Both the position numbers and the translations under genes were made by a program. Below, piece after piece: positions 40,262 to 56,851 of a stretch of DNA of 64,000 bases (position 1 is the first letter of the stretch; every line of letters starts with the position of its first letter). Source of the DNA: Aeoliella mucimassa (GTDB lineage Bacteria; Planctomycetota; Planctomycetia; Pirellulales; Lacipirellulaceae); contig NZ_CP036278.1 of the NCBI RefSeq assembly GCF_007748035.1, positions 6,262,001 to 6,326,000 on the forward strand, read 5' to 3'. The notes under the pieces were generated by a model. The model saw only the letters and a program-made list of their open reading frames with translations, was not told the DNA's origin and ran no database searches.

Positions 40262-40289
40262 ATACCACGAGCAGCCCTAAGGGTTACAT
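40262..40289 (-). promoter_or_regulatory. ECF-type promoter motif for the sigma operon
   Basis: On the minus strand, TGTAACC (40288-40282), 14 bases, then TGGTAT (40267-40262). The separation is the same in all four copies found. The -10-like part ends about 127 bases before the sigma gene start. The AAC in the -35-like box is typical of ECF promoters. Confidence 0.7.
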
Positions 40290-40359
40290 TCTCGCAGCTC
40301 AGCGACCATCGGTTCGGCGATAGATGGGAATAGCCGATTTCGGGAATGCGCGGGGCCGC

Positions 40360-40387
40360 ATGTAACCCTTCTCCGCCCGAGTGGTAT
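40360..40387 (+). promoter_or_regulatory. ECF-type promoter motif for the DUF1559/mannosidase genes
   Basis: TGTAACC (40361-40367), 14 bases, TGGTAT (40382-40387), with an A before the first box and a G before the second, as in the copies at 40262 and 54977. It faces the DUF1559 gene 275 bases downstream. Confidence 0.7.
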
Positions 40388-40662
40388 TTGATCACCGAAA
40401 GGCGGAAGCTTCCTTCTGGGAAACTCTCCTCAGTGACGATGTGAGGCCCACAGAATGCGGGCGAATTCTGCGGGACTTGCCTACCTAATTCCAATACTTG
40501 TCCGGTTGTCCTCAGTACGCGCTCCAGGCGGTAGCACGTTTAAGTGAAAATGCGTGGCGTTCGACACGAGTCGATCTGCCAAACGCATGTCTCTTCTACG
40601 ATACGAAAGCGTGCACGCGTGCGAGAGGAGCGCTAGGTGGAGTCAAGAAAGGAACCAATGAC

Positions 40663-41703
40663 ATGACTTGCTTCACACCCAAGAAGCCTAGGGGATTTAC
40701 CCTCGTCGAACTGCTCGTAGTAATTGCGATTATTGGCATTCTCGTCGCACTCTTGCTTCCCGCTGTGCAAGCAGCTCGCGAAGCAGCTCGCAGATCGGCA
40801 TGCACCAACAATTTGAAGAACCTCGCACTGGCGATGGTTAACCATGAATCGGCCTACGGATCCCTTCCCTCGTCGGGCTGGGGTGGTCACTGGTCGGGGG
40901 ACCCCGATCGTGGTCATGGCAAAAACCAACCTGGCAACTGGCTCTATAGCATCCTCCCGTTTATCGAGCAGCAGCAGCTCTACGATATGGGACACGGACA
41001 AACTGGCCAGCTCCGCAAGGACCAACTAGCGGCCCGCGATGGCACCACCCTGTCGGTGGCCAATTGCCCCTCGCGCCGTAACGGAGGACCTTACCCGTCG
41101 GGCGCCAGCTTGATTTCGGGCGACGGCACCGGCCAAGCCTCCTACTACACCAGTCCGCAGGCAGCCCGGGCCGACTACGCGGTGAACGTCGGCGATGAGA
41201 CCTTGTTCGACGACCGCTGCTTGTCGATCACGGCGGATCAATACGACGACGCCGTACTGCCAAACTTCCCTCCCAAGGCTAGCCAGTACTCGGGTATTTC
41301 GTTTTGCGGTACGGCGGTTAAGCTGCGCCAAATCACCGACGGGTTGAGCAAGACGATTGCCCTCGGCGAGAAGTTCGTACCTTCGACCGTTTACGAAAAC
41401 GGCGACTACTTTGCCGCCGACGATTGGAACATGTATGCCGGGTTCCAAGACGATATGGTTCGCAGCACGTTTTATAACGCCCGCGAACCTTCGCATACGC
41501 CGGTTCAAGATGATACGAACCTGAGTTCCATTGATGGTAGCGTTGCCCGCGAGCTGTTCGGCAGCCCTCACCCGGGTGGATGCCTGATGGCGATGTGCGA
41601 TGGCTCGGTAACCGTTGTGAACTTCGACGTCGATGCGGAGATGTTCCGTCAGATGGGCGATCGCGCCGACGGGGGAACGATCAAGGTGATCGAGCGACGT
41701 TAA
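40663..41703 (+). CDS. DUF1559 pseudopilin-like protein
   Basis: A 346-residue protein starting with a type IV prepilin signal: [21 protein letters not shown] with the conserved glutamate after the cleavage site, followed by the DUF1559 hallmark [21 protein letters not shown]. The C-terminal signature [16 protein letters not shown] closes the domain. Such proteins are extremely numerous in Planctomycetes and lie next to ECF sigma genes or secretion genes; they are thought to form pseudopilus-like fibres at the surface. The ATG at 40663 follows AAAGGA. An upstream frame extension was rejected because it lacks this signal. It leads the glycoside hydrolase genes, with a terminator-like hairpin 150 bases after its stop. 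Confidence 0.9.
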
Positions 41704-41851
41704 CACAAACGAACAGGGGGGGTCGCGACATTCGCGTGTGCCCTGGCAAATGACATGCGATAAGGCATCGACCAATCCAATGTGGTCTCGCCGAATTGCT
41801 GCTGGATGGGCAGTACGGTGCGTTACCGTGTCTGGCAGCAAACGCGGCATC

Positions 41852-41890
41852 GGCGCTCAGTCCGACCCAGTGTCGGCTGGGCGCCTTTAT
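41852..41890 (+). terminator. Hairpin with short T tail after the DUF1559 gene
   Basis: A 14-bp stem with one bulge (GGCGCTCAG and CCGAC with their partners) closes on a CCAGT loop and is followed by TTTAT. It lies 150 bases past the DUF1559 stop and 105 bases before the GH2 gene. It may terminate or partly attenuate transcription, so that the pseudopilin is made in larger amounts than the enzymes. Confidence 0.6.
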
Positions 41891-41995
41891 CCTGCCGCGC
41901 ACCCCCCCACCATCCACGGCATGGTCGAACATGTCCGCCACACCTCCCCTCAGGGAGTTGCTTGAACGCCTCCTTTCTGAACCAAAAGCGAACCG

Positions 41996-44494
41996 ATGAG
42001 AACCCCCATTGTCGCAGCGGTGCTACTGCTGGTCGCCTCCACCTGTGTACCACTGACCGCAAAGGTTGATACCTACGACCTAAGCGGTCAGTGGGTCTTA
42101 TCTCAGGTTGGTGAGTCATTGACTCTGCCAGCTCAGGTTCCCGGCAATGTGCAACTCGACCTGCTCCGCGAAGGCAAGCTGCCCGATCCGTTCTATCGCG
42201 AGAATGCCGACGAGTACGAATGGATCTATAGCGAGTCGTGGTGTTACGAGCGTGAGTTCGAGTTGCCCACCGATTGGCTGCAACGCAAGGTCGTGCTGCT
42301 GCGTTGCGAAGGACTCGACACAGTCGCTCGCATCGAAATCAATGGCGAGCTACTGGCGAACACCGACAACATGTATCGCACCTGGGAGTTCGATGTTAAG
42401 CCGCTTCTCAAGTCGGGAACCAACACGATTCGAGTGACGTTCTCTCCCATCCAACCTTACATCGAAGCGTTTCAACAGCGGGCGCCGAAGGTGCCAAATG
42501 CTACCGGCAAAGAGATCGCCAATATCCGCAAATCTCCCTACAGCAATGGATGGGACTTCTGTGCGCGCTTCCTACCCTACGGAATCTACAAGCCAATCTC
42601 GCTGATGGCCTACGACGAAACGCGGGTTCGCTATGTTCGCGTCATCACCGATCTCCAAGCAGCCGAACACGCCGAACTCACGGTCGATGTGGTTGCCGAT
42701 GTGGTCGAACCGGCTGCATTGCACAGCGAAATCGAAATCGAGTACGACGGCAACGTGATCGATCGCTGTGAGTGCAAGCTCGATTCCGGCTCCGCCCAAG
42801 GGAAACTGACCGTCGACCATCCCCAGCTCTGGTGGCCTAACGGCATGGGCGGGCAGCCGCTCTATACCGTGCGGGTGCGGGTGCTTGATGTCGACAACCA
42901 GGTGGTCGACGAGACAACTCGCCGAATTGGCCTGCGCGACATTCAGCTTCTTAAGCCAACCAAAGATCGCCCGCTGCGACTCGCCGTCAATGGACAGGAA
43001 ATCTACGCCAAGGGAGCCAACTGGATTCCTGACGATGTATTCCCCGCTTCGGTTACCGACGAAAACCTTCGCCAGCGTGTCGCCGACGCGGCCGCGGTGA
43101 ATATGAACATGCTGCGAGTGTGGGGAGGAGGATACTACCCCGAGGATGCGTTCTTCGACGCCTGCGACGAGTTCGGAATCCTGGTGTGGTCCGACTTCAT
43201 GTTCGCGTGCGCCCCGTATCCCGGCAACAACCCCGAGTTTCACGCCAACGTGCGGGCAGAGCTGACCGATCAGGTTCGCCGCCTACGGCATCATCCCTGC
43301 ATGGCAGTCTGGTGCGGCAACAACGAAGTAACCGCGATCATCACCAATTACAAGATGATTACCCAGGAAGAATACGATCGCCTGTTCCACGAAGTGATCG
43401 GCACCAAAGTAAAAGAACTTCATCCTCAGGCCAACTACGTAGGGGGCAGCCCCGAGGCAGGCGACGAGCACAACTGGTGGGTATGGCACGTCGGGGCCGA
43501 TTTCGAAAACTACCGCGATTCGCATGGCTGGATGACAGAGTTTGGTTTCCAGTCGTTCCCGCATCCCGCCACGGTGCGTAGCTACACCGATCCGGCCGAT
43601 CGCGACTCGGTCCTCAGTCCAGTGAATCGGTACCATCAGAAAAACGGCATCGGCAAAGGCAACGAGATTATTCTCGATAAGATGCATGGCTACTTCCGCG
43701 AGCCGAAGGACTTCGAGTCGACTTTGTGGCTCAGCCAAATCCTGCAAGCGTATGGCATGTCGGTCGGCATCGAACACTGGCGCACCGAATGGCCGCTATC
43801 AAGTGGATCACTCGTGTGGCAGTACAACGATTGCTGGCCAGGTCCAACCTGGTCGAGCGTCGATTACTACGGGCGGTGGAAGGCCGCGCACTACGCCTAT
43901 CGCCGAGTCTACGCCCCGGTGCTTGTCGCAGGCATGGCGGACTATAAAACGGGCACGGTACAAGTGAAAGTCGCCAGCGACCTCACGACCCCAGCCAACG
44001 CTACCCTGAGTTGGCGACTGGCCGATGTCGATGGCAACACGCTACTCACCGACGAAACCGAGTTGCAATTATCGGCAGGCACCACCTCGGCCGAAGGACC
44101 AAAGCTCGAATTGCAGCAAACACTCCAACGAGTTGGCCCCGAACGAGCCATCCTGTGGCTCGAAATCCAGGTCGATCAGCAGACTTATCGCAACATGGTA
44201 TGTTTGGTACGTCCTAAGCAACTTGAGTTGCAGCAACCCGACATCCAAGCCCAGGTATCTCAGCAAGGCGAAGCGTTTCGTGTGGAGCTTACCGCTGCCA
44301 AGCCAGCATTGTGGACCTGGCTGGAATGCGACGATCCCGACGCACGCTATTCCGATAATTTCGTGCACCTCGAGTCGGGGCGGCCTGTCACGATCGACGT
44401 TAAGCCGTCCCGCACGATGACCCTCGAAGAGTTCCAACAATCGCTTAAAGTACGAAGCTTACATGACACGTATACCACCACTCCATCGCAGTAG
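41996..44494 (+). CDS. Exported GH2 beta-mannosidase-like enzyme
   Basis: An 832-residue protein with a signal peptide (about 1-22, ending LTAKV). The layout is that of GH2 beta-mannosidases: an N-terminal jelly roll (SWCYEREFELP, LRCEGLDTVARIEINGELL), an immunoglobulin-like part (IGLRDIQLL), a TIM barrel, and C-terminal sandwiches. The acid/base is Glu444 in WCGNNE and the nucleophile is Glu515 in TEFGFQS. Beta-mannosidases of this type remove the beta-linked mannose from the N-glycan core or from manno-oligosaccharides. It overlaps the next gene by 32 bases, so the set is translationally coupled. Confidence 0.92.
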   Translation: MRTPIVAAVLLLVASTCVPLTAKVDTYDLSGQWVLSQVGESLTLPAQVPGNVQLDLLREGKLPDPFYRENADEYEWIYSESWCYEREFELPTDWLQRKVVLLRCEGLDTVARIEINGELLANTDNMYRTWEFDVKPLLKSGTNTIRVTFSPIQPYIEAFQQRAPKVPNATGKEIANIRKSPYSNGWDFCARFLPYGIYKPISLMAYDETRVRYVRVITDLQAAEHAELTVDVVADVVEPAALHSEIEIEYDGNVIDRCECKLDSGSAQGKLTVDHPQLWWPNGMGGQPLYTVRVRVLDVDNQVVDETTRRIGLRDIQLLKPTKDRPLRLAVNGQEIYAKGANWIPDDVFPASVTDENLRQRVADAAAVNMNMLRVWGGGYYPEDAFFDACDEFGILVWSDFMFACAPYPGNNPEFHANVRAELTDQVRRLRHHPCMAVWCGNNEVTAIITNYKMITQEEYDRLFHEVIGTKVKELHPQANYVGGSPEAGDEHNWWVWHVGADFENYRDSHGWMTEFGFQSFPHPATVRSYTDPADRDSVLSPVNRYHQKNGIGKGNEIILDKMHGYFREPKDFESTLWLSQILQAYGMSVGIEHWRTEWPLSSGSLVWQYNDCWPGPTWSSVDYYGRWKAAHYAYRRVYAPVLVAGMADYKTGTVQVKVASDLTTPANATLSWRLADVDGNTLLTDETELQLSAGTTSAEGPKLELQQTLQRVGPERAILWLEIQVDQQTYRNMVCLVRPKQLELQQPDIQAQVSQQGEAFRVELTAAKPALWTWLECDDPDARYSDNFVHLESGRPVTIDVKPSRTMTLEEFQQSLKVRSLHDTYTTTPSQ

Positions 44495-46373
44495 TCGCCA
44501 GGTGCAAGTTGCCCTGGTTGCTGCGGCCTGCTTACTGGCCACGGGTCTCTCCGCTCAGGCGAGTGCCGACGAGGGGCTGAAGTTCGCTTCGCCATTCTCT
44601 AGTGGCATGGTGCTGCAGCGAGACCAACCGATCACCGTCGCTGGTCGGGCGGCGGCTGGGGCCGACGTCGCACTTCAGCTCGGCGAGCAGCATCGCACGG
44701 CTAAAGTCAATAGTACTGGCAACTGGCAAGTGGTGTTCGACTCCTTGCCCGCCGGCGGCCCCTACGAGCTAACCGCCAAGCAAGGGGACCACCAACAAAC
44801 GCTCTCCGACGTACTCATCGGCGACGTCTGGCTATTCTCTGGTCAGTCGAATATGCAAATGCCGGTGCGTGAAGCTGAGGGGGGCGCCGACGAAATCTCC
44901 AATGCGGATGCCAACCTGTCGATTCGCTTGCTGATGGTCCCCAAATCGGGCGCCGACCAGCCACGCGACGAACTCAACGCCAGCTGGCAGCATTGCACTC
45001 CGGATGCGGTTCGACAGTTTTCGGCCGTCGGCTGGTTCTTCGCGAAGCATCTGCGTAGTTCTGCGATCTCGCCCGACGTGCCACTGGGATTGATCGACAG
45101 CAGCTTCGGCGGAACTACCGTCGAAGGATGGACCCCCGCCGGCCAGCTGCCCGACATCCCAGAGCAGAAGATTCGCGTATCGATGTTCGATATGCCAGCC
45201 TCTCATTTGTTTAATGGCATGATAGCCCCGTTGCAGTCCTACCGTCTCAAGGGAGCCGTCTGGTACCAAGGAGAATCGAACGCCGGCGCACCAGACGTTT
45301 ACGCGACACTTCTAAGTAACATGATGCAGCAATGGCGAAAGTCGTTCCACGATGCCAAGCTGCCTTTCTTCGTCGTGCAGCTTCCTGCCTACGAAGGACG
45401 AATGGAAGGGCTCGACTATAGTTGGCTTCGTGAAGCCGAGCAGCAAGCTTGCCTAGCGACCGACCGAGCCTGGCTGGCGGTGACTTACGACACGAATCCG
45501 GGTTTCGATTTGCATCCTCGCAAGAAAGCCGAAATCGGCCGCCGACTCGCCTTGCTAGCCGGACGCGAGGTCTACGGTCAGAGGGTGGTCGCCCATAGTC
45601 CTCAAGTCGAATCGGTGGAGTACCGTGGGAATCAGGTCGTCGTCACGTTCGACCAGCAAATATCCACGCCCGCAGGGGAACCTGTGGAAGGTTGCTGGAT
45701 CGCCAGCGATCCGGGAGATTACTTCACGGCCGAGGGGTCGATCGAAGGCCGCCAGTTGGTACTGCAAACCACGAAGGTTTCCCAACCGACTGCGGTACGC
45801 ATCGCCTGGGGAAGCATGCCGACCACCAATCTGTATAACGAGGCGAGATTGCCAGTCGTGCCCTATCGCAGCGACCAGAGAGCGGCCGATTCGCTGGCCT
45901 TCCAGCCGCTTCCGACCAGTTATCGCATCGAGACCTCGACGTACGCACTAGAACTTGGGCGGGGAGGATCGATCACGAGTCTCATCGCTGGCGGGCATCA
46001 GTGGATGTCGAACGAACCGGGCGGCGGCACCAGCATTCCCAATATGTTCGGTCCTCGCAATCTCGCCTACGTAAAGGAACTGGGGCCAGGACGCCTGCTG
46101 GCGGAAGACGACGCGGTACATCTCGAACTAGTCGCCCGCGAACAGACGATGGAATGGAACGTTGGCCACCATGGACAAGAAGACCTGGAGTTTCGTATGG
46201 CTCTCTCGCCTGCGGTGCAGGTGGAACTCCAAGGGTCGACCGCGGTGCTCACCCGCGATGGCTTCCAGATTCGGATCGAAGGGGTCGAGCGGTGCGATGG
46301 CTCGCACACACTGGTTGCCAAGATCCCAGCCCGCGATACAAACACGCTTCGCCTTACCTTCGCTAAACCCTGA
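44463..46373 (+). CDS. Sialate O-acetylesterase-like enzyme
   Basis: A 636-residue exported protein (signal peptide about 1-34). The SGNH catalytic blocks are present: FSGQSNMQMPV with Ser129, WYQGESN near 267, and a DLHPRKK segment (His) later. The first part of the mature protein (MVLQRDQPITVAG) and the overall shape are those of the SIAE family, which removes O-acetyl groups from sialic acid or other sugars. A C-terminal beta-rich part (about 480-636) is not part of the usual SIAE core. It is embedded in a mannosidase operon, so O-acetylated mannose-containing glycans may be its target. It overlaps the GH2 gene, and the next gene starts 18 bases later. Confidence 0.88.
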   Translation: MTRIPPLHRSSRQVQVALVAAACLLATGLSAQASADEGLKFASPFSSGMVLQRDQPITVAGRAAAGADVALQLGEQHRTAKVNSTGNWQVVFDSLPAGGPYELTAKQGDHQQTLSDVLIGDVWLFSGQSNMQMPVREAEGGADEISNADANLSIRLLMVPKSGADQPRDELNASWQHCTPDAVRQFSAVGWFFAKHLRSSAISPDVPLGLIDSSFGGTTVEGWTPAGQLPDIPEQKIRVSMFDMPASHLFNGMIAPLQSYRLKGAVWYQGESNAGAPDVYATLLSNMMQQWRKSFHDAKLPFFVVQLPAYEGRMEGLDYSWLREAEQQACLATDRAWLAVTYDTNPGFDLHPRKKAEIGRRLALLAGREVYGQRVVAHSPQVESVEYRGNQVVVTFDQQISTPAGEPVEGCWIASDPGDYFTAEGSIEGRQLVLQTTKVSQPTAVRIAWGSMPTTNLYNEARLPVVPYRSDQRAADSLAFQPLPTSYRIETSTYALELGRGGSITSLIAGGHQWMSNEPGGGTSIPNMFGPRNLAYVKELGPGRLLAEDDAVHLELVAREQTMEWNVGHHGQEDLEFRMALSPAVQVELQGSTAVLTRDGFQIRIEGVERCDGSHTLVAKIPARDTNTLRLTFAKP

Positions 46374-46390
46374 GTTGTTGGAGTGTTGCC

Positions 46391-48631
46391 TTGAAGAACT
46401 TGCTAACTGCATTGATGGTAATGGCGCTCGGTGCCAACATAAGCTGGTCGGCTGCCCCGTTGGTGGGAGATCCGGTCGACTGCGTAAATCCATTATCCGG
46501 CACCAATGGCGACGCTGAATTCTCGCGTGGCAACACCGTAGCGGCCATCGTTGCTCCGTTTGGGATGACCACCTGGGCGCCGCAGACCGACGAGCAAGCG
46601 TCGCCGTTCTACCAAATGAAGCACGACAAGTTCGAGGGCATCCGCGCCACGCATCAGCCGAGCATTTGGGTGCGTGACTATGGCAACTTCCTCATCACCC
46701 CCATCGTCGGCGAGGTATCGCCAAGCGTTGCCGAGCGGGCCAGCCCGTTCAGTCACGACCAAGAAATCGCCCGGCCGTATTACTATTCGGTCGAGATGTT
46801 CCGTTACGACACCACGCTGGAACTAACGCCGACCGAGCGTTGTGCGATGTTCCAAGTGCAGTACCCCACGACCGACCAGGCGAGCCTTGTACTTTCGCTG
46901 GAGGGAGATGTCGAAGCCACCAGCGATGCTTCCCGCACGCGCGTTCGCGGCAAGGCCACCCACGTTACGTTCGGTGCGCCGGGAGGATTTGCCAAGTACT
47001 TCGTGCTGGAATTCGAACAACCGTACCAGTCGCTGGAAGTAGCAAAAGACGACAAGCAAACCACCGCGACCATTCAGTTGCCGCAAGTTCAAAGCGATCA
47101 GCCAGTACGATTCAAAGTGGGCACTTCGTTCATCAGCTACGAGCAAGCCGAACTGAACCTCAAGCGTGAACTCGCAACCTGGGACTTCGATCAAGCGAAG
47201 GCCAGCTCCCGCGAGGCCTGGGAGAAGCAACTCGCTCGCGTCGAGATCAAAGGAGCCAGCGACCAACAGCGGGCAACGTTCTACACCGCGCTCTACCGAT
47301 CGTTGCAGTTTCCAAGGATGTTCCACGAGCCCGACACTGATGGAAACATGCGGCACTACAGTCCGTTTGCCAATGGCAAGGTGTTCGACGGGCCACTCTA
47401 TACCGACAACGGACTGTGGGACACCTATCGCACCGCGTTTCCGTTCTTTGTGCTGTACTATCCCGAACACAGCTCGCAGATTCTCGAAGGTTGGTTGAAC
47501 GCGTACCGCGAAGGAGGTCGCTTGCCGAACTGGCCGAGCCCGGGGAATCGTCCCTGCATGATTGGTTCGCACAGCGACTCGATTTTTGCCGACGCCTGGG
47601 TAAAAGGACTGCGGACGTTCGATCTCAAGGACGCCTACGCGGCGGTGAAGAAGAATGCCATGGAGGACGACGCCTGGGGGTGGGCGGGGCGGGACCATCT
47701 GAACGAGTACCACGAACTGGGCTACGTGCCGGTGGATGCTCGTAAGGACGCAGCGACTTCGTGCACCTTGGAATATGCCTACGACGACTACTGCGTCGCC
47801 CAGTTGGCCAAGGCCATCGGTCGGCAAGAAGACTACGAACTGCTGATGCAACGTGCAAAGAACTACCGGAACGTGTGGGACGAACAAACCGAGTTCATGC
47901 GCGGTAAGCAGTCCAATGGAGCATGGCAAGAACCGTTCGATCCCCTGGCCTGGGGTGGAGCCTACGTGGAAGGCAACGCCTGGCAATGGATGTGGTCGGT
48001 TCAGCACGATCCATATGGCTTGATGCAACTGCTCGGCGGCCGCGAGGCCATGGCTCGCAAGCTCGATGAGTTTCTCAGCATGCCATCGACGACCGTGGTC
48101 GGCAGCTACGGGCATGTGATTCACGAAATGCGAGAAGTGGAACATGCCAAGATGGGGCAGTACGCCCACATCAACGAGCCGAACCATCACGTGCTCTATT
48201 TCTATCACTTCGTCCGCGAGCCATGGAAAACGCAACACGCGGTCCGCCGGGTGATGGACGAACTGTACGACCCCGATGGCATGGTCGGCGATGAGGACAC
48301 CGGGCAGATGTCGGCCTGGTACGTTTTCAATGCGGCCGGCTTTTACCCGTTCTGCCCTGGCACGCCCTACTACCTAATCGGCAGCCCGCTGTTCGCAGAG
48401 ACGACCATCGCGCTACCCCAAGGTAAGTCGTTCGTCGTGCGAGCAGCGAACAACTCCGCCGAGAACTGCTACATTCAATCGGCACGCTTGAACGGCAAAC
48501 CACTCACCCGTACCTGGCTCACACACAACGAGATCGTAGCCGGCGGCACCCTGGAATTCGAGATGGGCCCCGAGCCAAATCGCCAGTGGGGAACCGGCGA
48601 GGCCGACGCTCCCCCGAATACGTTTCGCTGA
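46391..48631 (+). CDS. Exported GH92 alpha-mannosidase (first copy)
   Basis: A 746-residue protein with a signal peptide (MVMALGANISWSAA). It starts with TTG, with GGAG eight bases before. GH92 enzymes are calcium-dependent exo-alpha-mannosidases acting on high-mannose N-glycans. Family marks: YVNPLSGTN-like opening (DCVNPLSGTNGDAEFSRG), RDYGNFLITP, HINEPNHHVLYFYHF (acid region) and VGDEDTGQMSAWYVFNAAGF near the end. It is only distantly similar to the second GH92 in this locus, so linkage preference may differ. No truncation seen. Confidence 0.92.
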   Translation: MKNLLTALMVMALGANISWSAAPLVGDPVDCVNPLSGTNGDAEFSRGNTVAAIVAPFGMTTWAPQTDEQASPFYQMKHDKFEGIRATHQPSIWVRDYGNFLITPIVGEVSPSVAERASPFSHDQEIARPYYYSVEMFRYDTTLELTPTERCAMFQVQYPTTDQASLVLSLEGDVEATSDASRTRVRGKATHVTFGAPGGFAKYFVLEFEQPYQSLEVAKDDKQTTATIQLPQVQSDQPVRFKVGTSFISYEQAELNLKRELATWDFDQAKASSREAWEKQLARVEIKGASDQQRATFYTALYRSLQFPRMFHEPDTDGNMRHYSPFANGKVFDGPLYTDNGLWDTYRTAFPFFVLYYPEHSSQILEGWLNAYREGGRLPNWPSPGNRPCMIGSHSDSIFADAWVKGLRTFDLKDAYAAVKKNAMEDDAWGWAGRDHLNEYHELGYVPVDARKDAATSCTLEYAYDDYCVAQLAKAIGRQEDYELLMQRAKNYRNVWDEQTEFMRGKQSNGAWQEPFDPLAWGGAYVEGNAWQWMWSVQHDPYGLMQLLGGREAMARKLDEFLSMPSTTVVGSYGHVIHEMREVEHAKMGQYAHINEPNHHVLYFYHFVREPWKTQHAVRRVMDELYDPDGMVGDEDTGQMSAWYVFNAAGFYPFCPGTPYYLIGSPLFAETTIALPQGKSFVVRAANNSAENCYIQSARLNGKPLTRTWLTHNEIVAGGTLEFEMGPEPNRQWGTGEADAPPNTFR

Positions 48632-48730
48632 GCGCAACCGCTTGCGATACAATGAACCCTCGTTGTTTCGCAAACCAGTGCGAACCACGACTCGGAAGTC
48701 ACCTCACGCTTTCCAGGTAGTCTGAATCAC

Positions 48731-51304
48731 ATGAAACGTTACTACGCCTTGCTGTTGGTCGCCTGCGCCTGCTTCGCGCCCTGCTTGTCGAGTGCCGAGG
48801 AGCCCACCCAAGCGTATTTCGTCGATGGCTATCACGGCGGTGTCTACGGGCATTACCCCCCTGGCTACACGCAGTTTCTCGTCGATCGGCTCGAAGCCCA
48901 TCCCGAGTGGAAGATCAATCTCGAGATCGAACCCTCGACGTGGGACGTCGCCCAGCATTCCGAACCGGCCGCCTACGAGCGGTTGAAGGAGTTGCTGCGC
49001 GATCAGTCTTCTGCGGGGCGGATCGAAATGGTGAATCCCACCTTTGCCCAGAGCTACTTTTTCCAAAGCTCCGGCGAAAGCGTTGTGCGTCAATTCCAGT
49101 ACGGCATTCGTCACCTACGGCAACACTTTCCAGACGTTGAACTCACAACCTACTCGTCGGAAGAACCTTGCTTCACCAGTTGTTTGCCAACCGTACTATC
49201 TCAGTTGGGCTACGAGTACGCGGTGCTCAAAAACCCGAACACCTGCTGGGGTGGGTACACTTCGGCCCACGGCGGCGAACTCGTCCACTGGGTCGGCCCC
49301 AACGGCACCAAGCTGCTCACAGTGCCTCGCTACGAATGTGAATCGCTTCACTCGCGAGATTGCTGGCAAACGATCGCGTCGACCAACTCGCCGGAGTACA
49401 TCGCGAGGTGCCTTGAGCAAGGCATCGCCAACCCGGTCGGCATGTGCTTGCAAGACGCCGGATGGCGCGGAGGTCCCTGGCTCGGTTATTCAGCGGGCAA
49501 ACACTACACACCTTCCCGTTACGTGACCTGGCGCGAGTACTTTCGCGAGGTCGCAACCGCAACGCCCAAGGACTGGCGTTTTTCGCAGGAAGACGTAAAG
49601 CCCGGACTGATGTGGGGTGCTCAGGTGCTGCAGCGCATCGCCCAGCAAAGTCGCGAAGCCGAGCATCGATTGTTGGTCGCGGAGAAACTGGCCGCTATGG
49701 CCTACATCGAAACGGGGCACCCGCGGATGACCGGCGCACTCGACGATGCCTGGCACAATGTGCTCCTCTCGCAACACCACGATTGCTGGATCGTTCCCTA
49801 CAACGGCCGCCCGGGCAACACCTGGGCCGATCAGGTGCAGCGCTGGACCAGCATGGCCAACTCGATTAGCGATCTCATTGCGGCCAACGCCCTGGAAGCA
49901 CTCGTTCGCCAGGGCCGCTCCCGCCAGCAAGGGGTGCGGATCTTTAATCCCACGGCCACGGCCATCGACGCGGTGGTCGCTGTGCCGCTGTCTGATGAAG
50001 GACCACGCGACTCCGACTGGCAATCGCGCGACGCATCAGGAGGAACCTATCCCACGCAAGTCGTCCACAACCAAGCGACCGGCGAGCGCGAACTATTGGT
50101 CCGCGCCCATCTGCCGTCGCTCGGTTACACGACCGTGTCTCTTAGCAATCGCGGCCAATCCACCTCGGTGGTCACTGCGGCGACCGAAGGCGATCAGGTG
50201 GTACTCGAAAGCGATCTCTATCGAATAGTACTGAACCCCACTGCTGGTGGAACCATCGCGAGTCTGGTAGCGAAGTCGCTCGATAACCACGAGTTTGTGG
50301 ATTCCAACGGCGAGTGGCGTTTCAACGAATTGCGTGGGCACTTCTACAACCTGGGGGGATTCCGCTCAAGCGCCGACCAGCCCGCCGAGGTTCGCATCGT
50401 AGAACAGGGGCCGCTGCGTGCTACCGTAGAAGTAGTAGGCACCATTGCCGAACATCCGTTCGTGCAGCGCATTTCGCTGGTGCAGGGCTCGCCGATGATT
50501 GAATGCCAGGTGCGGATCGACTGGCAATCGCAGCCTCGGATCGGTGAGTTTGAAGAACGCGATGGATGGGGCAATCACCGCCGCGCGGCTTACGACGATC
50601 GTTACAAGCTGCTAGTTCAGTTCCCGAGCACTCTCTCCAGTCCAAAGCTAGTGAAGAACGCCCCGTTCGACGTATGCGAAAGCCAACTCGACGATTCCTT
50701 TTATAACTCATGGGAACAGATCAAACACAACGTGATTCTCGATTGGGTCGATCTCGAAGACCAGCAAGCCGGCTACGGACTGGCGATGTTTAGCGACCAT
50801 ACCACTTCGTACGCTTATGGACCGCAAGATCCGCTGGGTCTGACGCTGCAGTACGCTGGCAAAGGTTTGTGGGCTCGCGACTATCGCGTCGATGGCCCGA
50901 CCAGGGTCCGCTATGCGTTGGTACCGCACTCCGGCGATTGGCAATCGGCCGGCATTCCCCACCTGGCTGCCAGTTGGCAAGAGCCACCAGTGGGGGCCTT
51001 CGCCAGAAGCGGCCGCCCTGAGACTCGCTCGCTCGTTGATGTCGGCGAGTCGGGCTGGCAGGTTTGTTCGATGGTCGAACATCACGGCGATTTGTACGTT
51101 CGCTTATTCAATGCAACCGGCACCGATCAACCACAGTCGCTCCGTATGTCGTTCACTGCCGAGACGACCGAACTTGTCGATCTTTCTGGTAACGTGCAGC
51201 AAGTGCTGGAACCTTCGCTCCAGGAAGGACAATCGGTAGTGGATTTGAGTATACCCAAGTACGGTATCCGAACCCTGCGTTTTCGACGACTCAAGCGAGA
51301 CTGA
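48731..51304 (+). CDS. GH38-like alpha-mannosidase, divergent
   Basis: An 857-residue exported protein (signal peptide about 1-21). The order of regions is that of GH38: an N-terminal catalytic barrel with the metal-binding His-containing opening YFVDGYHGGVYGHYPP, a three-helix part with LLSQHHDCWIVPYNG, then beta-sandwiches at the C-terminus. The nucleophile region is altered: the classic DPFG motif reads EEPCFTS here, so the usual aspartate is replaced by glutamate. Two reads are possible: a true hydrolase with a variant nucleophile, or a non-catalytic relative. It starts 99 bases after the GH92 gene. Confidence 0.78.
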   Translation: MKRYYALLLVACACFAPCLSSAEEPTQAYFVDGYHGGVYGHYPPGYTQFLVDRLEAHPEWKINLEIEPSTWDVAQHSEPAAYERLKELLRDQSSAGRIEMVNPTFAQSYFFQSSGESVVRQFQYGIRHLRQHFPDVELTTYSSEEPCFTSCLPTVLSQLGYEYAVLKNPNTCWGGYTSAHGGELVHWVGPNGTKLLTVPRYECESLHSRDCWQTIASTNSPEYIARCLEQGIANPVGMCLQDAGWRGGPWLGYSAGKHYTPSRYVTWREYFREVATATPKDWRFSQEDVKPGLMWGAQVLQRIAQQSREAEHRLLVAEKLAAMAYIETGHPRMTGALDDAWHNVLLSQHHDCWIVPYNGRPGNTWADQVQRWTSMANSISDLIAANALEALVRQGRSRQQGVRIFNPTATAIDAVVAVPLSDEGPRDSDWQSRDASGGTYPTQVVHNQATGERELLVRAHLPSLGYTTVSLSNRGQSTSVVTAATEGDQVVLESDLYRIVLNPTAGGTIASLVAKSLDNHEFVDSNGEWRFNELRGHFYNLGGFRSSADQPAEVRIVEQGPLRATVEVVGTIAEHPFVQRISLVQGSPMIECQVRIDWQSQPRIGEFEERDGWGNHRRAAYDDRYKLLVQFPSTLSSPKLVKNAPFDVCESQLDDSFYNSWEQIKHNVILDWVDLEDQQAGYGLAMFSDHTTSYAYGPQDPLGLTLQYAGKGLWARDYRVDGPTRVRYALVPHSGDWQSAGIPHLAASWQEPPVGAFARSGRPETRSLVDVGESGWQVCSMVEHHGDLYVRLFNATGTDQPQSLRMSFTAETTELVDLSGNVQQVLEPSLQEGQSVVDLSIPKYGIRTLRFRRLKRD

Positions 51305-51628
51305 CGGATAGACGACTGATACCACCCAGCTAGAAGTCTGATTATTCGGATCATCGGTTCCGGCAATTGCGACTCGCTGAGCGATGGCGATGAGAAAGCT
51401 AGGAAAATCGGCACACGTGTAACCCAAGTGGTAGCATATGGTATACCAGTGTGTGTGGCGGTACCTTGCCCCGATCGGGAAGCGAAGACTTATCGAACGA
51501 ACATCCAGTCGCTGTGCGACTGGCAGGCAGCATGAGGAGCGGTCTTCTGCGTCGCCTGCTCGATGCCAGCCCGCTGCACTTGCATACCACCTAATTATCC
51601 AAGCCCAATCTTTACCCCCTATCCACCG
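51305..51628. other. Intergenic region with ECF-type promoter motif
   Basis: 324 bases before the second GH92 gene. It contains the motif at 51417-51444; the rest shows no supportable gene. Confidence 0.6.
51417..51444 (+). promoter_or_regulatory. ECF-type promoter motif for the second GH92 gene
   Basis: TGTAACC (51418-51424), 14 bases, TGGTAT (51439-51444). The bases just outside the boxes differ from the other copies, but the two boxes and the spacing are exact. It ends 184 bases before the GH92 start. Confidence 0.65.
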
Positions 51629-53965
51629 ATGATTCTCCCCCCAGCGGCTGCTCGGCTTCTAGTTTTTGGTTTCGCAACTTGGTGTAGCCTGGTAGTAGCT
51701 CCGGCGTGGTCGCAGGAGCCACCCCCCAAGTCGCCGGCCGACTACGTAAATCCCTTCATCGGGGCCAGCACCAGCGCCGATCAGGCGGGCATCTATCATG
51801 GACTTGGCAAGACCTTCCCCGGGGCAATCACCCCGTACGGCATGGTTCAACTCAGTCCCAACACTATCACCGGCGGCGACAACGGACCGGGTTACAGCTA
51901 CGAGATGCCTTACATCGAAGGTTTCGCCTTCACCCAGATGAGTGGTATCGGCTGGTTTGGCGACCTGGGTAATTTTCTGGTCACGCCGACCACCGGGCCG
52001 CTACAGGTGGTCGCGGGACGCCATCCCGAGGTCGCCCGCGGGTATCGATCGCGCTACGACAAAGACACCGAACAGGCGAAGGCCGGTTACTATTCGGCCA
52101 CGTTGACCGACTACGACGTACGTGTCGAAGCAACGGCCACGCCGCGCACTGGCATGCTACGCATGACCTTTCCCCAAAACGAACAATCGCGAGTGCAGAT
52201 TGACCTCGCGCGTCGCGTCGGCGGCACCTCGACCAAGCAAATGGTGCGAGTTTGCGACAAGCAAACCATCGAAGGATGGATGGAGTGCACGCCCGAAGGC
52301 GGCGGTTGGGGCAACGGGGCAGGGCAGGCCCGCTACACGGTTTATTTCTACGCGCAGTTCGATAAGCCGCTCGAGAAATACGGAGTCTGGAGCGCCGACA
52401 TTCCCGATGGCCAGCGCCGCAATCGCGAAGCGATCGAAAGCGAGGAATACGACAAACTGATTGCCGCGGCCAAGATCATCGACCAACCGACCGAGGTCGA
52501 AGGCGAGCACCTTGGCTTCTTCACCGAGTTTGCCACCAGCCAAGGCGAGCAGGTACAGATGAAAGTCGGCATCTCGTTCACCAGCTTGGAAGGTGCCCGC
52601 GCGAACCTCGAGGCCGAAAACACCGGGTGGCACTTCGACGCGATTCGCGAAGCAACCAAACAGCAATGGAACGATGCCTTATCGCGCATCACGATTAAGT
52701 CTAGCGACGAAGATCAGCTCGCGATCTTCTACACCGCGATGTATCACACGATGATCGATCCTCGAGCGATTTCCGATGTGGATGGTCGCTACCCAGGCGG
52801 CAACGGCAAGATTCACGAGCCGAAAGGCTTTACCAAGCGGACGATTTTCAGCGGTTGGGACGTTTTCCGTAGCCAGTTCCCCTTGCAGAGCATTATCAAT
52901 CCCACCCTGGTGACCGACACCATTAACTCGCTTATCGAACTGGCCGACGATACTGATAGCGACTACCTCGAACGTTGGGAGATGTTCAACGCTTATAGTG
53001 GGTGCATGCTGGGGAATCCAGCCGTGGTGATCATCACTGATGCCTACGTGAAGGGCTTGCGAGATTTCGACGTCGAGCGTGCATACGCGTTATCGAAAAG
53101 CTCGGTCGAGCGGTTCGGCAACGGCACCCGCGGCCATGCTGGCGACATCTCGCGGACGCTCGAATATGCGTACAACGAATGGTGTGTTTCGCAACTTGCC
53201 ACCGCCTTGCACCATGATCGCGATGCGAGACTTTACGCTACGCGAGCGAAGAGCTATCGCAATATTTTCGATCGCGACAAAGGCTGGTTCCGCCCGAAGA
53301 ACGGCGACGGCTCCTGGCAAAAATGGCCCGCCCAGGGACGTTTGCAACAAGGGTATGGATCGGTCGAGAGCAATCCTTACCAGCAAGGCTGGTTCGTTCC
53401 CCATGACCTCGACGGACTGGTCGACCTGCTAGGTGGGCGCGAAAAAACGCTGCTCGACTTGGAGCACTTCTTTAACAACACGCCGGAAGACTTCCGCTGG
53501 AACGACTATTACAACCACGCCAACGAACCAGTGCATCACGTTGCTTTCTTGTTCAATCAACTCGGCAGTCCGTGGCTTACCCAGAAGTGGACTCGCACGA
53601 TCTGTGCGAACGCGTACCGCAACGACGTGGAAGGTTTGGTCGGTAACGAAGACGTTGGACAGATGTCGGCCTGGTACGTGCTGGCCTCTTGCGGAATCCA
53701 CCCTGTCACTCCTGGCACAACCCGCTACGAGATCACCAGCCCCATGTGGCAACGCGTCGAAATGAATGTGGGCGAAGGCAAGGTGTTTACGATCAACGTT
53801 CGCAATCAGTCTCCGAAGAATCTCTACATTCAATCGGCAACCCTGAACGGCAAGCCGTACAACAAGACTTGGATCGACTATCCGCACATCATGTCGGGCG
53901 CGACGCTCGAACTCACGCTCGGCCCGGTTCCGAACAAGCGTTGGGCGGTGCCCGCACAGAACTAG
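51629..53965 (+). CDS. Exported GH92 alpha-mannosidase (second copy)
   Basis: A 778-residue protein, signal peptide about 1-29 (LLVFGFATWCSLVVAPAWS). GH92 marks are strong: ADYVNPFIGASTSADQAG, SYEMPYIEGFAFTQMSG, SGWDVFRSQFP, NHANEPVHHVAFLFNQL and VGNEDVGQMSAWYVLASCGI. It therefore matches the GH92 consensus more closely than the copy at 46391, for example in the FSGWD and PFIGA segments. The start at 51629 is chosen for the signal peptide; the frame is open to 51563, and no clear ribosome binding site favours either. Its own promoter motif separates it from the operon before it. Confidence 0.93.
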   Translation: MILPPAAARLLVFGFATWCSLVVAPAWSQEPPPKSPADYVNPFIGASTSADQAGIYHGLGKTFPGAITPYGMVQLSPNTITGGDNGPGYSYEMPYIEGFAFTQMSGIGWFGDLGNFLVTPTTGPLQVVAGRHPEVARGYRSRYDKDTEQAKAGYYSATLTDYDVRVEATATPRTGMLRMTFPQNEQSRVQIDLARRVGGTSTKQMVRVCDKQTIEGWMECTPEGGGWGNGAGQARYTVYFYAQFDKPLEKYGVWSADIPDGQRRNREAIESEEYDKLIAAAKIIDQPTEVEGEHLGFFTEFATSQGEQVQMKVGISFTSLEGARANLEAENTGWHFDAIREATKQQWNDALSRITIKSSDEDQLAIFYTAMYHTMIDPRAISDVDGRYPGGNGKIHEPKGFTKRTIFSGWDVFRSQFPLQSIINPTLVTDTINSLIELADDTDSDYLERWEMFNAYSGCMLGNPAVVIITDAYVKGLRDFDVERAYALSKSSVERFGNGTRGHAGDISRTLEYAYNEWCVSQLATALHHDRDARLYATRAKSYRNIFDRDKGWFRPKNGDGSWQKWPAQGRLQQGYGSVESNPYQQGWFVPHDLDGLVDLLGGREKTLLDLEHFFNNTPEDFRWNDYYNHANEPVHHVAFLFNQLGSPWLTQKWTRTICANAYRNDVEGLVGNEDVGQMSAWYVLASCGIHPVTPGTTRYEITSPMWQRVEMNVGEGKVFTINVRNQSPKNLYIQSATLNGKPYNKTWIDYPHIMSGATLELTLGPVPNKRWAVPAQN

Positions 53966-53995
53966 TAACCCAGTTATTGGCAAAGGCAGTAGGCG

Positions 53996-54880
53996 ATGAC
54001 GTCGCAACCGCTGACAGTACAAGTTGCGAGTCCCCAACAACAATTGCGGGCGTGGCCTTTATTTGCCTCGCAGTTTGAACAGCCTGCAGCGAATGCCCAG
54101 TACCTGATTGCCATCAAGTCGCGGCCTGTCGAGCGAATCGTAGCAGCCCTAGCCTGGTGGCAAGAACCCGATGCCATTCGCTTCCTGTTGGCTCACCAGC
54201 CAGGCATCACCATCGAAGCCGCTGCCGAGGCATTGGTCCCCCGACTCCAGTCGCTACCCGACTTGCCGCCGCTCGACCTGAAGTACGCGTTCTTGCTCCA
54301 ACAAGACCAACCTCCAGCACCCTGGCTGGCCGCCCATGGCTACGAGCCTCGCCATGCGGAGCGAGCGTTCGAAGCACCGAGCACCACCGTGTACGAACGC
54401 GTGCAAAAGTTCCTCACCCGCCATCACAACGATATCCCCGAAACATGGCACAGCGAGTCGATTCGCGATCACTCGCCCGAGACCGTGTGGCCACTCATCG
54501 AGCCTTACCGGTTGATCCACCCCGAAGCGCTGCGTCGCTTCTGGAACACTCCCGGCGAGCAAGGATACGATCCCGATTTCTCCAACATCCTGTTCGACGG
54601 CGACCAGCCCTTAGGCACGCTGCTGCTACGCAATAATCATGTTTGCCTGGCGGTCGACATCCGGGTGGTGATCGATATCGCTCCTCGCTTGCGGTCGCTG
54701 GCGAACCTGGCATTGTTCGCCCACATCAGTCGCGTGGCCTCGCCAGAGAGTACCGGCATCCGCACTCTGGCTTTTCGCGCCGATGAGCGCGAGCACCGCG
54801 AAACGGCCAACCTGGCGAAGCGAATGGGGGGTCGCGAGGTTGCGGCTCGCCACATCTACACTCGCGAGTTCTCTGCTTAG
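53996..54880 (+). CDS. GNAT-acetyltransferase-like protein, hypothetical
   Basis: A 294-residue cytosolic protein 30 bases after the GH92 gene, with GGCAGTAGGCG before the ATG. The C-terminal half (about 150-290) has the feel of a GNAT fold: a segment with LGTLLLRNNHVCLAVDIRVVI, then helices, and a final NLAKRMGGREVAARHIYTREF typical of acyl-CoA-binding ends. The N-terminal half has a similar size and pattern (VERIVAALAWW, LAAHGYEPRHAERAFEAP), so it may be a tandem GNAT. No partner or substrate is apparent. It is probably a passenger of the mannosidase transcript. Confidence 0.6.
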   Translation: MTSQPLTVQVASPQQQLRAWPLFASQFEQPAANAQYLIAIKSRPVERIVAALAWWQEPDAIRFLLAHQPGITIEAAAEALVPRLQSLPDLPPLDLKYAFLLQQDQPPAPWLAAHGYEPRHAERAFEAPSTTVYERVQKFLTRHHNDIPETWHSESIRDHSPETVWPLIEPYRLIHPEALRRFWNTPGEQGYDPDFSNILFDGDQPLGTLLLRNNHVCLAVDIRVVIDIAPRLRSLANLALFAHISRVASPESTGIRTLAFRADEREHRETANLAKRMGGREVAARHIYTREFSA

Positions 54881-55288
54881 GCTTCCCCTGTTTGGGCACT
54901 CCCCCCTCACGGTTGGGGGGGCGAATCTCTGGCGAAACAAGTTTCCCCAAATCATTCGCAACTCGGTCTCTCCAGAATGTAACCATCTGAGCGGCCAGTG
55001 GTATTTAGTCCCCAGATGCCACGGCACCGTCTGCTCCTCGCGCTCTACAACCAGGGCGGAAAACTTGGTTGCAGGGGGCGATGCGAAGGCTTGGTATCTT
55101 GCGCTCTCCGCGTTGCAGACGGTTTCCTAGCATTCTGGCGGCTATTCCAAAAACAAACCTCTTCGAAGTTCTATCTCAGCAACAGCATTAGCGTTCCCCC
55201 TTCTCTCGTAGTCGATAGGCGGCTAGCGACTTGGGCTTGCGCGTTGCGGGTGCTGGTATGGCTCAGCTTGTCTTCTAGGAGAGCTTAG
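54881..55288. other. Intergenic region with ECF-type promoter motif
   Basis: 408 bases before the LamG/PEP-CTERM gene. Apart from the motif at 54977-55004 no gene or hairpin is supported. The leader between motif and ATG is about 285 bases, like that of the DUF1559 gene. Confidence 0.6.
54977..55004 (+). promoter_or_regulatory. ECF-type promoter motif for the PEP-CTERM genes
   Basis: ATGTAACC (54977-54984) and GTGGTAT (54998-55004), separated by 13 bases; this includes the outer A and G shared with the two sites near the sigma gene. Confidence 0.7.
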
Positions 55289-56851
55289 ATGAGACACCTA
55301 ACTTTTTGGTCGTTTTCTACTGCGGTCACCACCGCGCTGCTGTTCGTCTGGTTGGCGTCACCTAGTGAGGCGGTGCTGCGTCACAAGTACACGTTCAACG
55401 ACGGCACCGCGGCCGATCCGGTGGCCGACGTTTCCGGCTCCGGCGTCGAGATCAATGCCACGTTCGTGAATCAAGGAAACCTGGGACAGATCGCCGGCGG
55501 CTATGCCGACCTGTCGAACAACAACGGATTGATTTCAGGCCAAGACTTCGTCAACGGCAACGGAATCGGTAGCTACATCGAAATCCCCAGCATTTACGAC
55601 GAAGTCAACAACGACTATCAGCTCCCCTTCTCCGACGCTGCGTACAACTCGCCTGACGGCGAGGCCTCCATCGAAATGTGGGTGACTGTCGACGAACAAC
55701 GCGACTTCGCCCGCATCTGGGATATGGGTCGTAGCGCGGCTGGCCAGGGGCAATCGGGTCTCGCGTTCAACGGCGAGTACGTTTACGGCGTCGCCCAAGC
55801 AGGGGCACTTCAAGGCTACTCCATCATGGCCGGCACCCACTCCACCGCCCAAACCGAAACCAACATCTCCCCTGCGTCGCCAGCGGTGCTGTCGCCCGGC
55901 GTCGAGTACCACATCGCATTCACCTTGGACGCGAACGACACCTCGGCAGGTCCCAACGGTACCGTCAAGCTCTACCTCGATGGTAGCCAGGTCGCCAGCG
56001 GAGCTATCGACAATGGCAACTCCGGAGTCGACGCAATCGATATCACCTTCTTGCAGGAACTCAATAGCTGGTTCGGCCGTTCGCAATGGGGAAGCGATTA
56101 CCTGTTCGACGGACTGTACAACGAGATTCGCATTTACAGTCATGAACTCACTCCTACCGAAGTCATGGCGAACTACAACGCGGGCCCCGATGACGGTTCC
56201 GCTTTGCCGACGGTCAACATCGATCGTGCTACCGGAGAGATCACCATTTCCAACAACAATGCGAGCAGCGTAAATCTGGTTTCGCTCTCCTTGCTTTCCT
56301 CAGCCGGGGCGCTCGATACCGCTGAGTTCCAGTCGATTGATGGCACCTGGGGCAACCAGGCGTTGACCGCTACCGAAATCACCGAGTCGGGTTCTACCTC
56401 GATTCCTGGTTCGACAACCAATGCTGCGAACCTCGGCAATACCTGGATTCGTTCCAGCATCGAAGACCTGCAGGTGGTGGTTGAACTGTCCGATGGAACG
56501 CACACGGGTGCCTTCGTCACTTATTCCGGTACCTCCTACTCGCCGATCGACCTGAACACCGATGGGGTCATTTCGGTGGAAGACTACTTGGACGTCTTCG
56601 CTCCCAACGGCGAAAGCGATCTCAGCAGCGAAACTTTGGTCGCCGCCGCTCTCAAAGGCGACTTGGATGGTGATTACGACAACGACTACGACGATTGGGT
56701 GTTGTTCAAGAGTCTTTACAACGCCGCAAATGGTCCAGGAGCTTTGGAACAAGCGATCGCCAACTACACGGCGGTGCCCGAACCTTCGACTCTCTGGCTA
56801 ATCGGCTTGGCTGGTGTGGTGCTGTGGACCCGTCGGCCTTCGGCTCGCTAA
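55289..56851 (+). CDS. LamG PEP-CTERM surface protein
   Basis: A 520-residue exported protein (signal peptide about 1-28). A LamG/concanavalin domain covers about 30-300 (LRHKYTFNDGTAADPVADVS, ASIEMWVTVDEQRDFARIWD, FDGLYNEIRIYSHELTPTEV). Next is a module of about 100 residues that recurs in the next PEP-CTERM genes (VNIDRATGEITISNNNASSV), then a dockerin-like segment (DLNTDGVISVEDYLDVFA, GDLDGDYDNDYDDWVLFK) and the PEP-CTERM tail (VPEPSTLWLIGLAGVVLW then TRR). The protein is thus a polymer-binding, cell-surface anchored protein. GGAGAGC lies before the ATG. First gene after the promoter motif at 54977. Confidence 0.87.
   Translation: MRHLTFWSFSTAVTTALLFVWLASPSEAVLRHKYTFNDGTAADPVADVSGSGVEINATFVNQGNLGQIAGGYADLSNNNGLISGQDFVNGNGIGSYIEIPSIYDEVNNDYQLPFSDAAYNSPDGEASIEMWVTVDEQRDFARIWDMGRSAAGQGQSGLAFNGEYVYGVAQAGALQGYSIMAGTHSTAQTETNISPASPAVLSPGVEYHIAFTLDANDTSAGPNGTVKLYLDGSQVASGAIDNGNSGVDAIDITFLQELNSWFGRSQWGSDYLFDGLYNEIRIYSHELTPTEVMANYNAGPDDGSALPTVNIDRATGEITISNNNASSVNLVSLSLLSSAGALDTAEFQSIDGTWGNQALTATEITESGSTSIPGSTTNAANLGNTWIRSSIEDLQVVVELSDGTHTGAFVTYSGTSYSPIDLNTDGVISVEDYLDVFAPNGESDLSSETLVAAALKGDLDGDYDNDYDDWVLFKSLYNAANGPGALEQAIANYTAVPEPSTLWLIGLAGVVLWTRRPSAR

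Follow-up and report, generated by a model that had tools for sequence, protein, structure and literature searches.

The window analyzed here is a stretch of 64,000 nucleotides from Aeoliella mucimassa (contig NZ_CP036278.1, positions 6,262,001 to 6,326,000). It encodes an ECF sigma factor, a putative anti-sigma protein and, divergently, a DUF1559 protein followed by predicted glycan-degrading enzymes. The features are listed in window positions.

37952..39502, minus strand: putative anti-sigma protein, assigned from its position and its similarity to the clade
39584..40135, minus strand: ECF sigma factor of the Rhodopirellula/Verrucomicrobium (gvs1) family (TIGR02989, 147.5 bits, cut-off 124.55; Sigma70_r2 and r4_2)
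40262..40288, minus strand: TGTAACC-N14-TGGTAT promoter candidate before the sigma gene, exact match; TGTAAC promoter before sigma in the four closest orthologues found
40361..40387, plus strand: divergent promoter candidate before the DUF1559 and GH2-esterase-GH92-GH38 genes, exact match; counterpart in G005, G040, and G041
40663..41703, plus strand: DUF1559 protein with prepilin-type N terminus and H-X9-DG C terminus, conserved divergent partner of sigma
41996..44494, plus strand: GH2 beta-mannosidase-like protein (Ig_mannosidase and Mannosidase_ig domains)
44463..46373, plus strand: SASA-type carbohydrate esterase (domain match)
46391..48631, plus strand: GH92 alpha-mannosidase family protein (domain match)
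48731..51304, plus strand: GH38 alpha-mannosidase-like protein (domain match)
51418..51444, plus strand: promoter candidate before the second GH92 gene, exact match; same motif before a GH92 gene of G041
51563..53965 (start possibly 51629), plus strand: second GH92 alpha-mannosidase family protein (domain match)
53996..54880, plus strand: 294-aa protein downstream of the second GH92 gene, no Pfam/NCBIfam match at E≤0.001
54978..55004, plus strand: promoter candidate before the LamG/PEP-CTERM gene, exact match
55289..56851, plus strand: secreted LamG (Laminin_G_3) protein with PEP-CTERM sorting signal (domain match)

The minus-strand site at 40262-40288 precedes the sigma gene and then the anti-sigma gene, while the site at 40361-40387 is followed by the closely spaced genes for the DUF1559 protein, GH2, the SASA esterase, GH92, and GH38, in this order. 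By our own reading of the start codons, the genes beside the sites begin at 40135 (sigma), probably at the ATG at 40663 (DUF1559), at the ATG at 51563 or 51629 (GH92), and at 55289 (LamG/PEP-CTERM). Three of the five window enzymes belong to families that include alpha-mannosidases (GH92 twice and GH38), and the GH2 protein carries mannosidase-type domains. Given these families, the cluster looks built for mannose-rich glycans, as far as predicted activities go. No TonB-dependent transporter was found among the 11 window proteins scanned. The anti-sigma gene is also adjoined by a gene for a 1,313-aa protein (33845-37786, minus strand) matching DUF4185 and the 3-keto-disaccharide-hydrolase domain. 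A protein of about 1,350 aa occupies the same place in G005, G040, and G041, with a GSDH match in G005.

Distribution of the TGTAACC-N14-TGGTAT motif

A sequence-only reading of this DNA had reported four exact copies of the motif, each pointing at a gene. Sequence matching returned the same coordinates and strands, and the sigma, DUF1559, second GH92, and LamG/PEP-CTERM genes were confirmed as the genes that they precede. The search of the whole 6,608,792-base single-contig genome revealed exactly four exact matches, all inside the window, and none for the reversed control pattern. The scatter across the genome that would speak against a regulon was thus not seen: the exact motif is confined to the window. 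The earlier figure of 0.002 assumed equal base use; with the base composition of the window (58.6% GC), chance predicts 0.0009 matches per window and 0.097 per genome. The four sites have little sequence in common outside the boxes, either in the spacers or in the flanks, so recent duplication is not the explanation.

When up to two mismatches were allowed, the genome gave 85 matches, including the four exact ones, versus 76 for the control. Loose matching of the whole genome thus reveals no wider regulon, and these matches were not counted as regulon members. Only one of the six single-mismatch sites lies ahead of a recognizable gene: 2510279 (TGTAACT-N14-TGGTAT), about 200 bases before a GH97 gene. 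Two frames, of 137 and 177 codons, overlap it, but its place before GH97 kept it among the candidates, and the regulon probably reaches outside the window. The other single-mismatch sites were rejected, four because they lie within frames of 918, 399, 215, and 354 codons (2905223, 3070545, 3604385, and 3876432, respectively) and one, at 728634, because it overlaps 148- and 173-codon frames and has no clear gene downstream. Two further sites were dropped because their −10 box differs: the one at 578554 reads TGTAACC-N13-GGGTAT and is followed by a protein whose start resembles a signal peptide, and the one at 5248769 falls within a 194-codon frame. Two repeats were observed in passing. Several GGGAATCTATT-type short repeats lie ahead of the GH97 leader (L006, reverse strand, less than about 400 bases before the 2510279 site). 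A 27-base sequence (TGTGACC...GTGGTTT) is found unchanged at four positions, all on the minus strand (652756, 1925913, 2537445, and 2968735), and probably belongs to a repetitive or mobile element.

We then compared 43 genomes of the family (Lacipirellulaceae, Planctomycetota). The source genome (G000) groups with G003-G005 in one genus, and the closest sigma orthologues found in the family are those of G005 (70% identity), G040 (59%), G027 (58%), and G041 (57%); a contig scan for more orthologues gave only two, both already among these. The same type of promoter, TGTAAC-N13/14-[TC]GGT[AG]T, lies upstream of the sigma gene in four of four; the sequence-only reading had proposed such a search of related genomes. 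A divergent copy before the DUF1559 gene is present in G005, G040, and G041, and the candidate of G027 (AGGTGT) is weaker. The spacing of exactly 14 bases is a property of the exact matches in this genome and does not extend across species: 19 tabulated sites from four genomes have spacers of 13 (11 sites) or 14 bases (8 sites), and the G005 sigma orthologue has both. A paralogous sigma gene of the source genome, at 6010017 (53% identical), is preceded by GTAACC-N13-TGGTAT, with TGTAACC-N13-TGGTAT on the divergent side. In the source genome, the exact N13 form occurs only at this paralogue and the exact N14 form only in the window.

In the five sigma-bearing genomes (31.6 Mb), the pattern TGTAACC-N13/14-YGGTRT had 18 matches, compared with 5 for the reversed control; the 38 genomes without the sigma (186.6 Mb) gave 9, compared with 13 for the control. 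Its density is thus about 12 times higher where the sigma is present, a comparison that is descriptive, as the genomes were grouped after the sigma loci had been seen. Half of the 18 matches (2 in G005, 2 in G027, 2 in G040, and 3 in G041) lie away from the sigma loci, where the rate of the sigma-less genomes predicts 1.5 matches in all. The nine matches in the sigma-less genomes were set aside as chance-like: eight fall on frames of 300 codons or more, one of these touching just the end of the frame, and the remaining one falls on a frame of 120 codons.

Among the distal matches, TGTAACC-N14-TGGTAT itself precedes a GH92 gene in G041, and in both G040 and G041 the promoter is found before two common pairs of orthologous secreted proteins. 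The first pair is a BSP peptidase with a 3-keto-disaccharide-hydrolase domain, the second a metallopeptidase-like secreted protein, for which Pfam support is weak and limited to G040. Within the two pairs, the compared parts of the proteins show identities of 70% and 62%. Their leaders have diverged and have little in common except the boxes, which is the strongest single argument that the predicted promoter boxes are under selection. The G040 and G041 loci are GC-rich (66-68%), and long opposite-strand frames cover some of the sites. The frame covering the metallopeptidase sites is that of a PhyH protein, and its conserved part starts 104 and 61 bases ahead of the respective site. The one at the G040 BSP site encodes MdoG, with a Pfam domain beginning at residue 170, upstream of the site, and the 243-codon frame at the G041 BSP site has no Pfam match or conserved counterpart. 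In all three cases that could be judged, the conserved portion of the divergent gene stops short of the site, and these sites were therefore treated as intergenic. In G005, additional sites precede a PEP-CTERM-like protein and one with a Lamin-tail domain; the match at G005:C60:14605 has no clear target gene. One of the two distal matches of G027 lies inside frames and the other before an unrelated-looking frame, so this genome adds little beyond its sigma promoter.

Sigma clades and the conserved module

The genome encodes 26 sigma factors of the gvs1 family above the cut-off. We compared 52 gvs1 loci: the window, 27 others from this genome, and 24 from relatives. The generic pair AAC-N15/16-GGTAT was present upstream of the sigma gene in 11 of the 52, at 0.545 per kb in the 600 upstream bases versus 0.035 per kb in the rest of these loci. 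The pairs that this generic type of search gave at other gvs1 genes were mostly chance-like and were not used, except for a GCAACC group. Two clades carry distinct boxes. Clade A, the TGTAACC group, comprises five loci and forms one moderately supported group among the labelled rows of the maximum-likelihood tree (79/83; recovered in 84% of bootstrap trees). Clade B, with GCAACC and GGTAT or GGTGT, includes loci of G006, G008, G025_C93, G024_C12, and G004_C30 and a paralogue in G005_C29, and is one group with support of 100/96; at the G005_C29 and G004 loci, the divergent copy alone convinces. The region-4 helix has the sequence KG[AS]LLRAR in all six members of clade B versus [KR]V[RG][LF][ML]R[IL]R in all five of clade A. 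The −35 type of these predicted promoters thus follows the sigma phylogeny and the recognition helix. Variant boxes were seen at four more loci (6010017, 2756787, G005_C87, and G025_C219), and no acceptable promoter copy was found in 9 of the 24 loci of the enclosing sigma clade, so the rule linking helix and box is incomplete.

Three observations concern other gvs1 loci. Sigma matches within frames of 1,129 and 811 codons (G000:C1:3735317-3735787, L033, and 3717401-3717754, L059, respectively) may represent sigma factors that carry long additional domains by fusion. Another gvs1 sigma gene (L128, G000:C1:4650798 locus) has an inverted repeat, AGGAACTCC...GGAGTTCCT, some 200 to 230 bases upstream. 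In G005, two modules of sigma, anti-sigma, and DUF1559 genes of the same clade lie no more than about 20 kb apart (L094/L095, G005:C12 173616-182230).

The genes around the sigma factor are conserved as well. A DUF1559 gene lies divergently beside sigma in 18 of the 24 clade loci. Proteins similar to the window anti-sigma protein (phmmer, E≤1e−5) were found in 22 of these 24 loci and in 0 of the 28 others, some of them just 3.5 kb in length. Downstream of DUF1559, eight of nine genes scanned in six loci matched PEP-CTERM or dockerin models (E≤0.01), several of them below the curated cut-off. No regulator other than sigma and anti-sigma was seen in the conserved module, whose third member is DUF1559.

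An outer region with predicted lectin-like domains

The window has the layout of an ECF sigma factor with a membrane anti-sigma, namely, a protein with sigma2 and sigma4 domains adjoining a protein with one predicted helix. The latter comprises a short N-terminal part, one probable transmembrane helix at about residues 103-127, and an outer region of about 350 residues; the single hydrophobic helix was judged by eye and its limits come from a low-confidence model. From its position and clade similarity, we infer that it acts as the anti-sigma of this sigma factor.

The outer region carries motifs at residues 325-347 and 491-506, in two predicted DUF4114-like or LecB-like domains. The loops GWDDSG...D-x-D-F-N-D and GFEDS...D-W-N-D recur with variation across an alignment of 21 clade members, and this region has DxD[FY]ND-like loops in common with DUF4114 domains. 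Presumably, they also resemble the calcium/sugar loop of LecB. The Pfam model of DUF4114 (PF13448) matches 14 of the 21 members at E≤0.1 (best, 8.8e−6). Its match in the window protein, at residues 283-349, scores 21.8 bits, below the curated cut-off of 27. The second repeat, at residues 443-511, was aligned with a profile of 18 DUF4114 domains (hhalign, 85%; E = 6e−6); the profile used 18 of 25 matches, the other seven being left out for convenience as weaker or near contig ends. No match of the DUF4114 model in this genome passes the curated cut-off, and the single one at E≤0.01 falls in the anti-sigma protein of another member of the clade.

The full-length model of the anti-sigma protein was poor (pLDDT 50.1), so the outer region was modeled alone. 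In Foldseek, this model matched LecB/PA-IIL, RS-IIL with methyl-mannoside, CV2L, and BC2L-C with a probability of 1.00 and a TMt of 0.57-0.68, at an rmsd of 4.5-6.2 and on a model of mean pLDDT 63.4 built from three sequences. The two best matches by E-value are GH101 enzymes, not lectins, with TM≤0.18, and matches with E-values better than or similar to those of the lectins include other proteins at much lower TM-score. A search of the sequences of solved structures with the anti-sigma profile gave nothing meaningful. Taken together, the predicted outer region weakly resembles mannose/fucose lectins of the LecB type. In excerpts of two reports on DUF4114, the domain of an Acanthamoeba protein bound mannose-agarose (PMC11934332), and that of PilY1.1 was described as a Ca2+ site for which sugar binding is proposed (PMC9109919). 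A putative mannose/fucose-type lectin on the anti-sigma of a mannosidase regulon would make a coherent picture.

A predicted switch for mannoside degradation and its known relatives

The evidence makes a strong case, from conservation, for TGTAACC-N14-TGGTAT as the promoter of the gvs1 sigma factor encoded at 39584-40135. Taken as a whole, we favor with fair confidence a lectin-gated ECF switch for mannoside degradation as the best explanation. The neighboring membrane protein would hold sigma as its anti-sigma, and its two predicted calcium-type DUF4114/LecB-like domains may bind a mannose-containing glycan or the fragments released by the enzymes. This binding would free sigma, probably through proteolysis or a conformational change, and the freed sigma would transcribe its own operon and the divergent DUF1559 gene with the GH2-esterase-GH92-GH38 genes, as well as the second GH92 gene and the gene of the LamG/PEP-CTERM surface protein, and probably GH97 elsewhere. 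That sigma reads these boxes, that a sugar is the signal, and how sigma is released are what we infer from the features described above. The sequence-only reading had anticipated much of this. Its proposal of autoregulation agrees with the TGTAAC promoter kept before the sigma orthologues. A regulon of glycan degradation and surface proteins is supported by the same predicted promoter before orthologous targets with diverged leaders, and the anti-sigma outer domain as sensor is made plausible by its modeled lectin-like fold.

The alternative that survives best keeps the sigma promoter and changes the signal to another sugar, calcium, or the state of the envelope, with the mannosidases recruited in this lineage only. 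No mannosidases were recognized among the listed frames around the G005, G040, and G041 sigma orthologues, of which a minority was scanned for domains, so the link to mannose rests on this genome and the one GH92 site of G041. The G040 and G041 targets are, besides that GH92, the BSP peptidase with its 3-keto-disaccharide-hydrolase domain and the metallopeptidase-like protein, and the excerpt on PilY1.1 treats DUF4114 as a Ca2+ site (PMC9109919). Against this, GH92 genes are predicted targets in two genera and a GH97 gene is probably another in this genome. Moreover, the LecB-type relatives and, reportedly, the Acanthamoeba DUF4114 domain (PMC11934332) bind mannose or fucose. We therefore give this alternative some, limited, credence. 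It is unlikely that several paralogous sigma factors of overlapping specificity jointly drive these promoters. Cross-talk with the paralogue at 6010017 is possible, because both sides of its locus carry nearly the same boxes with N13, and the G005 orthologue with both spacings indicates that spacing alone need not discriminate; however, each exact form of the motif is restricted to its own locus.

Quite improbable, in our view, is that the motif is a two-part operator of another transcription factor, an activator or repressor, with ordinary promoters nearby. A bipartite box of 13 bases could bind a dimer, one operator could serve the DUF1559 and sigma genes, which are close to each other, and the promoter activity of the motif is predicted from sequence. 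On inspection, however, the boxes show no palindromic or directly repeated structure. Both the four window sites and their conserved counterparts in relatives are oriented toward their genes, TGTAACC and its spacing fit ECF geometry (tGTAACc-N16-CGAA for ECF16, in an excerpt of PMC3420878), the box type tracks sigma phylogeny and recognition helix, and the conserved module lacks a further visible regulator. Chance or sequence duplication can be practically dismissed: although the two-mismatch sites are not enriched over the control, four clustered exact sites contrast with 0.097 expected per genome, their flanks and spacers share little, and the motif is conserved in other genera.

The lectin-gated switch for mannoside degradation may be one case of a broader arrangement. 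In an extension that we find about evenly balanced between true and false, this planctomycete ECF clade would be a lectin-gated switchboard with paired LecB/DUF4114-like domains on each anti-sigma, −35 boxes specific to subgroups (TGTAACC, GCAACC, and others), and a common GGT[AG]T −10 box, each sigma driving a divergent DUF1559 gene and its own regulon of glycan-related and surface proteins. Planctomycetes are rich in ECF sigma factors, as illustrated by the gvs1 members of this genome alone, and in glycan-degrading enzymes. For the gvs1 sigma, the finding supplies a concrete candidate promoter and a likely class of ligands (mannosides). The relation between sigma helix and −35 box offers a route to predicting the targets of other members, and the abundant, poorly understood DUF1559 prepilin-like proteins become linked to such a switch. 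An excerpt of a Rhodopirellula study counts 74 DUF1559 genes and suggests that an ECF factor regulates a neighboring gene (PMC2754498).

The window sigma is a clear member of TIGR02989 (Sig-70_gvs1; Planctomycetes and Verrucomicrobia), above its curated cut-off. Among the papers listed by our literature searches, none was seen to give a promoter or sensor for this family or a GGTAT −10 box with a gvs1 sigma, although the 2021 ECF reclassification could contain a group-specific promoter. The sites show what is typical of ECF promoters, an AAC-type −35 box at a fixed spacing from the −10 box, upstream of sigma itself. The sequence-only reading had not seen this promoter described; our searches likewise found no precedent for the −35/−10 pair, but they did for the −35 box: excerpts quote tGTAACc as the proposed −35 of ECF16, with N16 and a CGAA −10 (PMC3420878), and TGTAAC in two promoters of Sinorhizobium RpoE7 (PMC6180224), so this box is not new. 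The likeness to ECF16 (EcfF, Bradyrhizobium) lies in the tGTAACc box and the ECF spacing. The −10 box differs, being CGAA or (c,t)CG(t,a) there, according to the same excerpt, and [TC]GGTAT here, with TGGTAT at all four window sites. EcfF has been described with a response to reactive oxygen, whereas the sigma here belongs to the gvs1 family.

The closest functional analogue, used only as such, is SigI/RsgI of Clostridium thermocellum. In an excerpt on cellulosome regulation, several paralogous sigma/anti-sigma pairs sense polysaccharides outside the cell and switch on genes for glycan degradation as well as their own (PMC4711584), so that a carbohydrate-sensing anti-sigma controls glycan enzymes, as proposed here. 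SigI belongs to another sigma family, and its sigma-I6 promoter is CNNAAA/CGAA (excerpt of PMC4711584). The sensor domains and the phylum also differ, and the divergent partner here is a DUF1559 prepilin-like protein. Bacteroides ECF sigma/anti-sigma pairs provide glycan-responsive switching of SusCD-type degradation loci, with a TonB-dependent transporter taking part in sensing. The window shares with them the proposed glycan-responsive ECF switch and differs in that none of its 11 scanned proteins is such a transporter. The predicted outer domain weakly resembles LecB/PA-IIL lectins in its modeled fold and DUF4114 domains in its DxD[FY]ND-like loops, and the difference is that two such predicted domains, with putative sugar binding, sit on a membrane anti-sigma. 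By this analogy, the working principle is already known from SigI/RsgI, and what appears to be new is the sigma family, the promoter, and the sensor.
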